This document shows positions 1,853 to 63,583 of a stretch of DNA of 64,000 bases, piece after piece. The notes under the pieces were generated by a model. It ran no database searches. It had not been told where the DNA came from and was given only the letters and a program-made list of their open reading frames with translations. A program made the translations under genes and the position numbers. The stretch is from Halichondria panicea. Its lineage: Eukaryota; Porifera; Demospongiae; Suberitida; Halichondriidae. How positions within the stretch are numbered: position 1 is the first letter of the stretch; every line of letters begins with the position of its first letter. The DNA lies in contig NC_087387.1 in the NCBI RefSeq assembly GCF_963675165.1, positions 4,862,990 to 4,926,989 on the forward strand, given 5' to 3'.

Positions 1853-4800
1853 ATGGCTCTACTCAGTGCGACTGTATCCATTTTACTTCTTTATGTCAGC
1901 ATCACCAATGGACAAAGTAAATTACATTTAGCCACTGCATGGCTACTTACCTAAGTGTAGTTGTGGCTTTATATAATAGTTTTTGGTTCAATCTCTCTGT
2001 CGTCAGAACCGTGTGTACTTAGTGCTTACTGAATTTTTGCAGACACTGGTGTGAGGGTGGTGTTTGACTCGGTGACCCCAAACTCGTACACAGTGATAGA
2101 AAATGCTGAGGAACTGATGGTGTGCATCAGAGTGGAGGGAACCATCAATCAACAGTTCTCTGTCACCCTCAACACGTTTAGCGCTGGAAGTGCCATTGGT
2201 ATGAATGAATTCTATAGAGCTACACAATTCAGTTGTTGAGCTAAAGAAAGATTGGTACTACATGCTGTTTAGGATTAGTCAGGTGTTGTTGTGTTTGTTA
2301 ATGTGAACAGTGTTATTGATTTTGAGTACCAAAACTCCAATCATTTGATCTTCCTCTCCTAGCAGGTGGTGTTGACTATACTGACACCACGGCAACACAC
2401 ACGTTCATCCCATTCTCCACCCTTACCCGCTGCACGACCATTACTATTAATGATGACAACATACTCGAGGGAACTGAGTTCTTTTTTATCTCTGTCTCCT
2501 CTGACGATTCCTCAGTTGAAATTCCTCCGCTGGCAACTGTTTCCATCACAAATGATGACAGTGAGTGTTCATAAATTCTCATCCCATTTCTATGATACCT
2601 CTGCATTATCATGCAGTATCTGCTTAAGGGGGGGCTGGTATATGCATAGTGCACAATCAACTATAATAATTATCAGCTTGTTTACACTTGTCCGATAGCC
2701 ATGTCCATATAATACGCTATACTCCTCAGGGACCAACTCCTAATTAGTCACCTTGCATTTATTAACCTCTTCTCTCCAGCCGTGGTGATTGGTTTTAACC
2801 AGACGAGCTACTCTACAATAGAGGGGATCCCAGGCAAGATGTGTGTGGTCATTGTCAGTGGGTCTATTGCGAGGAGTGTGTCATTCATTGTGACACAGAC
2901 AGGAGGAACTGCTTCAGGTAACGGTGTCGTTACCGATATAATAATTGTTACATTTTAGTCAGTAAATTTTTTGTAGACATTGTCAGTATAAATTAAGTGT
3001 TTCATATGGTCCATACCTCACTCTAGGTGATGACTACATACCAGGACCTCTTACTGGTAGCATCACGGTAGCCGATGAGCCAGTGTGTGTGAACCTTCCC
3101 CTCAACAATGACAGCATTGTAGAGGACACAGAGACAGTCTTGCTCACTGTGAACAGTGCGGACTCACCAACAACAGCCACCACCACACTGAACATTCTCG
3201 ATGACGATGGTGGGTGGGCATGGCTATTCTATACAGTATTTTTTGCTTTCTAATTTTATTTCTCATAGATCCTATTATGGTAGCTAGGCTAGAGTGTGGA
3301 TATTGGGTTGGCCTTTGTTGAGACCTGGGTGTCTTGCTTTTTTGGCCCTTCATCACAAGGGTGGCTATTAAGAGGGGCTCCATGCACTGTATATCCCAAT
3401 GTGTGCAATTTTTTGCAACTATTCTTTCAGGTGTGACTGTACAACTGGCCTCGACTCAGTTGAGTGTAGTTGAGGGAAACAGTGGAACCTCTTCTCTTTC
3501 ACTCTGTGTCCTTCTGACTAACGTACAGAATAACTTGGATAGGGACGTGACCCTACTGATGAACACACAGCCATCATCAGCAGGTGAGGATAGCATGTTT
3601 TGAGAAGGGAGTAGGAGGAGTGTTATTATAATAACAAGTCACCCATTATAGTTCATTGTAATCGACACATAAATTATTGTGATCTTCTGTATGAGTTGAA
3701 ATTAATCAGAATAACAGTATTTTTGATATGTCTCATTACATGCAGATACTTGAGCGTAACAGTTTATATTTCATTCTGCATAGATACGAGTGATTTTGTC
3801 TCTCTTGTGGATCAACCCCTCACTATTCCCATGACAACAGGCCTCTTTGAAAATGTTTGCTTTCAATTAGCTGTAAACGGAGATACAGTTTGTGAGCAGA
3901 GTGAGTTGTACTCGGTCAGTGTGACCCCTATGAACCCTCTGGACATGGTGACGGGGCTAGCCGAGGTTGATATTACAATTCTGGATGATGGAGATTGTGA
4001 GTGTGTTTGTGTGTATTGTAGTATTTTCACCATAATTATATCTCTTTTCAGTAAAACTAACCAAGGCAACTATGTAGTTCTAATTGTTACGCAAGGATAC
4101 ATGTGTGAGGCTGCCTCTTGAAGAGTTCACAACAACCTAAGTATAATTATTACTTTGTATTTCCTTCCCGTCAGCTATTGAAGACTGTGGTCCGCTGTCT
4201 GTTGCCAGTGGCACAGTCCAGTACACTGCCACTACCCGCGGCTCGGTTTCCACCTATACCTGCGCGCCAGGATTCATTCTGGAGGGGGTGGAGTCTCGGA
4301 CCTGTGAGGCCACGGGATCATTGTGTTTAGGACTGTGGTCAGGGAGTCCCCCCACCTGCAGATGTGAGTCAAGTGTGTATGGAATTAGAGTTGGTAATAG
4401 ATAGTACCTTGCACGGAATTTTTTCCGCCTAGCAGGTTGGGATGATCAGTAAGAATATCCAATAGATGTCTGTGACGTGTTCTATATTATACCCTTCCTT
4501 TCCTACAGTGGCTAACTGTGGACTCCTCCCTTCTCTAAGCAATGGGGAAGTTAGTTTTTCAGCGACCACTTTCAACTCGGTAGCTTCCTACACTTGTGAC
4601 TTGGGTTACATCCTTATTGGAGAAACCAGTCGCATGTGTCAGCTGGACGAACAATGGTCTGGTGATGCACCCACTTGTGACGGTGAGATTTCACTGTATT
4701 CTCTTCGGCACTTAAGTTTTATGAACTGGAGAAATAAATGTTCATGCCTTTGCCATAATAATATATCTACTCTCATTATTGATGATTAATATTATTAAGC

Positions 4801-62793: not shown

Positions 62794-63583
62794 TTATGAC
62801 TCAGTGTCAGCAGTCACACTAGTGTATGCCTCATTCTCTGTGGTGGGTATATTCGACCACCTTACTTCAGTGTAGGCTTCATTTCTTATCATTGCCACTT
62901 CTGCTGTCCCACTCAACCTGTTAGCGTCAGTTGCCATGACACTATTATTAGTGGTGGTAACATCGCCATAGGCCGGGTTAAGTATCGTGGGTGGATCATG
63001 TGATACAGATGAAGGATTGGCAACCATTTGTAGTTTCTTGGTTGTGCCGTATGCTTTGTTTGTTTTCATGGTTACTTCATTTATCCCTCCCATTCCCTCG
63101 TTTACGTAGTAGTAATCATCTGTTGTGATAACATCCCCATTGGCATTACTCTCAGTTAGGTTGCTGTTTGAGTCAGTTGATTCCTCGATGGTAGTATAGA
63201 GGGGCTCTTGAGTTGAAGGGACCTCTGTGCTAGAGCTAATTATCGGGGCATCATTGATGTCTTCATAATACTCACTATTGGTAGCTTGGTAAGTAGCCAC
63301 GTCTGAAATAATGAAAATACGAACTTTTAATTGGCAGTCTTCATTTATCTTTATTTACCTGACTGCTGCTGCTTCTTAGCTCTTTGCTTGTGTATAATAT
63401 ACAGCAATAGAATTATTATAACCGTTGCAGCAATCATTACTAAACCAACTGGTATTGCTATTCCCACATATAGTCCAACATTGTCAGCTGCTGTAGTAGA
63501 AATAATGGTATGACAAAGTAATGAGACATACATCAGTAGGTTTAGTAACGTAATAATTGCTGGCAAGAAGCACTCATCAATAT
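62794..63583 (-). CDS. Receptor I: TM and complete type 2 tyrosine tail (5' part outside or lost)
   Basis: Exons: EGF remnant beginning at 63583 (D-I-D-E-C-F-L then diverged after ~20 nt), TM 63490-63359, tail 63302-62794. The TM exon encodes VGLYVGIAIPVGLVMIAA and a IHKQRAKK stop-transfer. The 169-aa tail is the full version with PLYTTI, NPAYGDV, NEAYTEV and NEAYTSV before the TES end, unlike the shortened tails of E and F. The EGF exon has lost all but its start: from about 63562 to the TM acceptor no stop interrupts the frame, so read-through into the TM is possible. Ectodomain exons are not visible within the remaining 400 bp; they may lie beyond 64000. Confidence 0.65.

Follow-up and report, generated by a model that had tools for sequence, protein, structure and literature searches.

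How can a receptor change its output while keeping its binding head? This question is raised by a 64,000-nucleotide stretch of DNA (C11:4862990-4926989, hereafter the window) that holds a cluster of genes built from Calx-beta, CCP and EGF exons. The domain set and the intron-rich genes mark the DNA as animal, and an origin in a sponge is likely. We interpret the locus as a cluster of type I membrane receptors evolving by birth and death, where recombination has exchanged entire 3′ modules beneath a head that was kept, and put the probability of this reading at roughly 0.7. An earlier reading of the window (the original prediction) had proposed a recognition system pairing one head repertoire with two unrelated tails. 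The structure it described is real, and the addition of a donor family and of a junction makes the case stronger than that reading could make it. What is new here is a putative donor family on contig C17 for the second tail, a relic of its stalk in an intron of gene E, and a mapped junction.

The genome searched comprises 131,455,214 bases in 39 contigs (contigs C2, C4, C6, C8, C11 and C17 appear below), and our reading extended over 20 kb of left flank and 50 kb of right flank on contig C11, together with 60 kb of contig C17. Coordinates above 64000 or below 1 carry the window numbering on into the flanks. Exons C1-C15 are the CCP exons of gene B, Cx1a is the first Calx-beta half exon, and B2 is a copy of B in the right flank (plus strand).

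A head repertoire in phase-1 exons

The receptor genes of the window, with transmembrane abbreviated as TM, are as follows.

1853-14437, plus strand: gene B; signal peptide, three Calx-beta exon pairs, 15 CCP, 7 EGF, stem, TM, tail 1
11290-11412, plus strand: EGF3 exon of B, the last exon common to B and E
23037-26666, minus strand: gene D; signal peptide (26666-26603), Calx-beta, CCP exons C5, C6 and C8, TM (23731-23618), full tail 2
28401-39681, minus strand: gene E; CCP exons C5-C15, EGF1-3, TM (28985-28830), shortened tail 2
41637-50744, minus strand: gene F; signal peptide (50744-50666), Calx-beta, CCPs, TM, shortened tail 2
55561-61770, minus strand: gene H; signal peptide (61770-61707, relaxed threshold), Calx-beta, C1-C5, C7, C8, then fragments
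62794-63890, minus strand: 3′ end of gene I; EGF3 stub, TM (63490-63359), full tail 2 (63302-62794); the whole gene starts at 78149, outside the window

Gene B sets the pattern. Its chain of 29 exons is open from the signal peptide at 1853 to EGF7 (1541 amino acids), and the 28 exons inside it, running from the first Calx-beta half through EGF7, are each a multiple of 3 nt long and of phase 1-1. Borders of AG and GT flank 26 of these 28, the EGF exons at 12098 and 12395 being listed 3 nt off visible AG/GT sites. CCP exons measure 174-189 nt and EGF exons 117-126 nt. Pfam recognizes 14 Sushi stretches (1e-111), 7 EGF_CA (2e-49) and 2 Calx-beta stretches (5e-27) in B, the three Calx-beta exon pairs having been distinguished by eye; at E<=0.001 these domain types were found in the B head and no immunoglobulin (Ig) domain. 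The minus-strand genes follow the same grammar, as originally predicted. The extracellular domain exons here are thus bounded by phase-1 introns, which is the arrangement given for metazoan class 1-1 modular proteins in the portion of the source available (PMC8001218).

Exon-by-exon BLAST bears out the claim that B, E and H share their exons closely. B and H have Cx1a to C5 in common, plus C7 and C8; B and E have C5-C15 and EGF1-3, that is 11 CCP and 3 EGF exons; over these two sets the DNA identity is 92-100%. Matching full exons are 89-100% identical in DNA overall and 93-100% between B and E. The same comparison did not find EGF4-7 of B in E. Most of B is present in B2, while D shares only C5, C6 and C8 with B, after a Calx-beta set of its own. 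The likeness extends into the introns: among 13 compared between B and E, 10 have similar lengths and an identity of 84-98% (91.5% when their head introns are pooled), and the other 3 are 69-90% identical over their alignable part.

Several chains can be read through. E is open from C5 with canonical sites (948 codons including the stop), I is open from signal peptide to tail 2 with canonical sites (1009 codons including the stop), and D is open (597 codons including the stop) once a middle Calx-beta half exon without good sites is omitted. In F, CCP exon 4 (45337-45170) is frame-shifted, as judged by eye, and the chain from CCP1 to the tail without it is open over 576 codons with canonical sites. 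Gene H stands as a related locus in part: it is open from Cx1a to C8 (761 codons, with AG and GT at 13 of 13 exons), and what follows on its 3′ side is limited to pieces of C9, of C10 and of the TM exon of tail 2 (55612-55561), with no tail.

Two 3′ modules and the B/E junction

Beneath these heads lie two kinds of 3′ end, as the original prediction had held: tail 1 under B, and tail 2 under D, E, F and I.

13192-13685, plus strand: stem and TM exon of the tail-1 module, with relatives elsewhere in the genome and without a Pfam match
13880-14437, plus strand: tail 1 of B, with motifs LYDSV, MYDTS, IYDSV and IYDKA
28986-29058, minus strand: last intron of E, containing a relic of a C17-type mucin stalk, with homology from 29036

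No BLASTP match at E 10 links tail 1 to tail 2 of I, of D or of the C17 copy C17:4619, and the two tails appear to have no relation to each other. Tail 1 compared with the third tail type, tail 3 of gene A at the left edge of the window, gives E 1.6. Pfam at E<=0.1 returns nothing for the B stem, tail 1 or tail 2. For the gene A stem Pfam gives only weak matches, all below their cut-offs.

The genomic distribution of the two modules differs. Tail 1 occurs in three places genome-wide, all in the C11 cluster, namely in B, in B2 and, with its frame broken, at 21361-21922. Of the 24 matches to tail 2, five are on contig C11, in D, E, F, I and a duplicate of I, and 19 rows fall at C17:4.525-4.640 Mb; its TM segment has 17 matches, on contigs C11 and C17 only. 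The C17 genes have a layout of their own, with a single-exon ectodomain of about 200 residues, a threonine/proline-rich mucin-like stalk, the same TM and tail 2. This ectodomain (FDCCGVVTEWRA...VWRPN) has 48 matches, 48 of them on contig C17; it has no Pfam match (E<=1), and its best match among PDB sequences has E 0.43. Members of the ectodomain family lie at C17:4604268-4644474 (L037-L040 in part) and also at 5.2 and 5.6 Mb, with tail 2 following at 4.5-4.6 Mb.

The point at which B and E part can be placed closely. Homology between them ends at B 11418 and E 29053, and homology of E to the C17 stalk begins at 29036 in four C17 copies, in one of them inside a stalk exon, at C17:4619321. This places the meeting point of the two parents within about 16 bp, immediately 3′ of the EGF3 exon. 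From the EGF3 donor to the TM exon, E aligns with C17 stalk code; the stretch contains one in-frame TAA (seen by eye) and is now intron. Because a stalk relic is found in the intron of E, a C17-type 3′ end appears to have been set onto a C11 head, which suggests that the module of TM and tail 2 moved from contig C17 to contig C11 and not in reverse. The junction falls in the intron right after a phase-1 exon, and so fits the predicted exchange of heads and tails by recombination in phase-1 introns, to which the donor family on contig C17 is now added. The same spot bounds the homology between B and gene A, which consists of the EGF3 exon alone, and the change in identity between B and B2, which is 92.6% on one side and 98.5% on the other side of a deletion that removed EGF2 and EGF3 from B2.

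Two kinds of repeat lie in this neighbourhood. TG repeats at 29188-29309 and 63585-63797 abut the EGF3 exon in E and the EGF3 stub in I, near the junction, and arrays of a 20-bp repeat in both orientations occupy 31610-32790 and 36585-36691, inside the large intron between CCP exons C11 and C12 of E. For the TM exons of F and I, an in-exon fusion with CCP/EGF was considered and is not needed, a normal TM acceptor being present.

The other module points to a different source. A search with the stem-TM of tail 1 gives 87 matches at E<=0.1, counting B and B2; contig C4 has 57 of them, and there they probably mark a much larger receptor cluster. Those on contig C4 lie at C4:0.14-2.17 Mb and 5.3-5.7 Mb (L049-L056 in part). 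Ig-like exons, recognized by eye, precede the stem-TM in both relatives that were read among nine translated loci, L049 on contig C4 (which has CCP exons too) and L057 on contig C8. In a single AlphaFold2 prediction the isolated B stem reached a mean pLDDT (predicted local distance difference test) of 45, and a SEA-like fold for the stem is a hunch only.

From this anatomy we propose the following course. Receptors built of phase 1-1 exons would have had their 3′ module, the membrane anchor together with the signalling tail, swapped by recombination under a retained head. Module 2 (TM and tail 2) would have come from the mucin-stalk receptor family of contig C17 and joined a B-type head in E; module 1 comprises EGF4-7, stem, TM and tail 1, and its stem-TM is that of another, larger receptor family.

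An alternative is that tails are chosen by splicing. F, E and D stand head to tail on one strand with phase-1 joins, and one promoter might feed alternative heads and tail-2 ends; E has no signal peptide of its own while F, upstream of it, has one, and the modelled joins are of phase 1. D has its own signal peptide, however, and tail 1 is on the opposite strand, so that splicing cannot join it to E. We regard this alternative as improbable.

The tails themselves are rich in tyrosine sites. In tail 2 of I, 6 of the 11 tyrosines fit the pattern Yxx[I/L/V] (including YEDI, YTTI, YGDV, YTEV and YTSV), and NPAY and YVNE are present as well; in tail 1 of B, 3 of the 8 tyrosines fit it (YSTL and two YDSV). 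Sites of this type are docking points for SH2 or PTB adaptors. By eye and against the canonical consensus, none of the 8 tyrosines in tail 1 (B) or the 11 in tail 2 (I) fits an immunoreceptor tyrosine-based inhibition motif (ITIM), and none is paired at the spacing of an immunoreceptor tyrosine-based activation motif (ITAM). Tail 2 is full in D and I. The predicted tail-2 motif NEAYTSV is out of frame in E and F through a common deletion of about 100 nt, and both these tails end ...NPAYxDVTTTNNHRE*.

Both tails may serve as tyrosine-phosphorylated docking platforms. If so, the swap would give one ligand-binding head two different outputs, in the manner of paired receptors, and one ligand with two outputs would be the likeliest use of it. 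A stronger version, in which the exchange is a working one in an early-branching animal, holds that single recombinations near the last shared EGF exon can re-wire C11 heads, with tail 2 taken from contig C17 and the tail-1 anchor from the stem-TM family, yielding two opposed outputs per ligand without an ITIM/ITAM code; this we consider unlikely.

Copies, selection and rival readings

The cluster contains broken copies, truncated genes and both tandem and inverted duplications, in keeping with the predicted birth-and-death process. Stray tails between the genes, likewise predicted, are found for both types, together with other displaced pieces.

21303-22000, plus strand: stray tail-1 copy, 94.8% to 13813-14514, its core at 21361-21922 at 97%; reading frame broken
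27361-27471, minus strand: stray tail-2 scrap, 76%
39944-40153, minus strand: D-type Calx-beta half exon upstream of E, 97% to D
40639-40707, minus strand: stray tail-2 scrap, 88%
54457-54527, plus strand: tail-1 scrap, 79%
1-339, minus strand: 5′ end of gene A, signal peptide and CCP; the gene runs on left of the window to an end of stem-TM and tail 3
15420-20662, minus strand: gene C, protein kinase and kelch-like repeats (kelch by eye)

Exons have also moved beyond whole-gene duplication. EGF3 is the only exon that B shares with gene A (131 bp, 94.7%, flanks unrelated), and a D-type Calx-beta half exon stands upstream of E. Gene A ends in a third tail type after a stem-TM resembling that of B, and in the left flank (-4828 to -5478 and -8357 to -9473) it carries a collagen-like stretch whose Pfam score, 26.2 bits, is just below the cut-off. 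In B2, an open in-frame exon at 81513-81734 consists of half a Calx-beta and half a CCP, with AG and GT intact. Gene C sits between tail-1 copies; its portion up to 19616 is duplicated alongside the 3′ end of B2, the copy extending in the right flank to 96725. Elsewhere in the genome, cathepsin-L gave 77 matches; the 4 exons read all have the ordinary active-site cysteine, and none is a silicatein.

The two ends of B and B2 differ in divergence. Identity is 91.7% over 8823-10842, 98.5% over 11405-11540 and 98.4% over 11538-19616. Between the heads it is 84.5-92.2% in pieces, with a synonymous divergence (dS) of 0.110, and the 3′ segment, which includes most of gene C, is 98.4% identical over 8,097 bp, with dS 0.050 for the receptor exons. 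Over 5 kb, gene I matches its copy in the flank at 98.9%.

Values of this kind lie within possible allelic divergence, and the 98.9% of I with its copy over 5 kb and the 98.4% of the B/B2 3′ ends over 8 kb would be expected if uncollapsed haplotypes or mis-joins in a tandem array made one locus look like many. The pooled head introns, on the other hand, differ by 8-18%, the copies vary in their deletions and orientation, and the window contains no N. An assembly artefact of this kind is very improbable.

Selection on the shared CCP exons is purifying. The ratio of non-synonymous to synonymous divergence (dN/dS) of the CCP exons is 0.15 for B-E (dN 0.016; p 3e-14), 0.31 for B-B2, 0.32 for B2-E, 0.32 for B-H, 0.16 for B-D and 0.16 for E-D. 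The range for Calx-beta exons is 0.28-0.42, and constraint is weaker on the three EGF exons of B-E, with 0.63 over 118 codons. At gene level, the CCP exons held in common show no diversifying selection. The original prediction had counted purifying selection on all binding modules among the outcomes that would speak against it, and on the CCP exons, one part of this, purifying selection is what was found.

Tail 2 behaves differently. Ratios from comparisons with C17 copies (I-C17:4619 0.54, D-C17:4619 0.40, I-C17:4606 0.66, D-C17:4606 0.66) and from pairs within contig C17 (C17:4619-4622 0.35, C17:4606-4619 0.62) stand here; those for pairs from contig C11 are given below. When 7 full-length copies of tail 2 are aligned, 7 of the 8 tyrosine columns free of gaps do not vary, whereas among all 137 columns 70 are invariant (one-sided Fisher test, p 0.036). 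Taken together, these ratios and the tyrosine columns indicate heads that are conserved and not visibly diversifying, and a tail 2 that is loosely held except at its tyrosines.

Several observations weigh against the replacement of whole modules under a retained head as we have drawn it. Among the genes open from signal peptide to tail, B with tail 1 and D with tail 2 have just C5, C6 and C8 in common. Two scans for a signal peptide of E, from the tail of F to the first CCP exon of E and, at relaxed thresholds, over 39690-41600, found none, and for that reason a complete pair whose heads match throughout is absent from this assembly. Tail 2 of E and F has its two final tyrosine sites out of frame. 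Little purifying selection is seen on tail 2 among the C11 pairs (I-D 0.84, E-F 1.26, I-E 1.00, D-E 0.52 with p 0.02), and p falls below 0.05 in only 4 of the 10 tail-2 pairs tested on contigs C11 and C17 together. The synonymous step between the two parts of B-B2 is only about twofold (0.110 versus 0.050, p 0.0023), and the near-identical copies (I with its copy, the B/B2 3′ ends) could be haplotype or assembly duplicates.

Some of this would be expected of neutral debris, in which recurrent segmental duplication, inversion and deletion leave chimeric and mostly dead copies and the difference between the tails has no function. E without a signal peptide, H without a tail, the frame-shifted CCP exons in F (by eye) and B2 (exon C4), the stray tails and the weak constraint on tail 2 among C11 copies all agree with it. 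Against it stand the open chains with canonical sites in D and I, the open frame of B to EGF7, the B-E ratio of 0.15 for the CCP exons and the better retention of tail-2 tyrosines than of other columns, and we find this explanation rather unlikely.

A role in ordinary adhesion is a more serious possibility, somewhat short of even. Here the genes would encode adhesion or matrix receptors working in calcium-dependent adhesion, their variety of tails reflecting use in different cell types and not immunity or the distinction of self from non-self. Purifying selection on the shared CCP exons and the presence of Calx-beta and EGF_CA domains agree with this, whereas tandem clusters with broken copies and exchanged tails are, as a matter of general knowledge, more typical of recognition families. 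It overlaps with module replacement under a retained head, since it assigns another role to the same anatomy. Of the interpretation first offered for the locus, one head repertoire on two unrelated 3′ modules, exchange by recombination and birth-and-death are upheld; the cluster may serve as a recognition system, with purifying selection and incomplete members telling against it.

Comparison with known systems

Receptors with one binding face and different outputs are well documented in vertebrate immunity. At this locus, the genomic step itself can be seen in an invertebrate: the junction is mapped, another contig carries a donor family, and a remnant of the donor stalk persists in an intron of the recipient. 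It makes testable both the swapping of outputs outside Ig-based immune receptors and which phosphotyrosine adaptors each tail uses. If the genes prove silent or neutral, they still offer a clear example of how chimeras are assembled in clusters of phase-1 receptors.

Sponge aggregation factors, with which Grice et al. are said to have dealt in 2017, are secreted and combine Calx-beta arrays with a wreath domain. B has Calx-beta in common with them; it differs in having a TM and a tail and in being dominated by CCP and EGF. Elsewhere in this genome, Calx-beta units about 406 bp apart form a regular array at C2:272025-278225 (L001-L008), which we take to be reminiscent of aggregation factors, and a Calx-beta match at C6:2382998-2383231 lies within an open frame of 10,065 codons.

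In the partial literature covered, we found no paper on sponge CCP/EGF/Calx-beta receptors with tail exchange. The SRCR and sushi/EGF immune-type receptors of sponges also form tandem multi-domain families, some with sushi and EGF; they differ in being SRCR-based, and the text covered does not describe pairs with a shared head and exchanged tails (PMC10855680, PMC6208332).

The fester co-receptors (FcoR) of Botryllus, as far as the available text goes, resemble the present genes in forming an invertebrate cluster and in having a sushi domain, Yxx[I/L/V] tail cores and an exchange of tail motifs. They differ in their Ig domains, in their place at the fuhc locus and role in allorecognition, and in swapping ITIM and hemITAM by splicing, where here the exchange would be by genomic recombination (PMC12065747). 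Similarly, the paired receptors of the FcR-like family in Xenopus, in the parts of the source seen, show domain shuffling and birth-and-death, with similar extracellular regions and distinct TM regions; they differ from the C11 cluster in belonging to the Ig superfamily and to a vertebrate (PMC2413239).

Of the features of paired receptors, different anchors and tails are present in B as against the tail-2 genes. The closest parallel in mechanism is the dog pair CEACAM1 and CEACAM28, for which the available portion of the source describes a near-identical binding exon, different signalling tails, gene conversion and purifying selection (PMC2110893). The CEACAM pair has Ig domains, ITIM/ITAM tails and reported coexpression, whereas the genes of the present cluster have CCP/EGF/Calx-beta heads and no canonical ITIM or ITAM; what the two have in common is near-identical exons above different tails, here the stretch carried by B and by E (the latter with no signal peptide found), and purifying selection.

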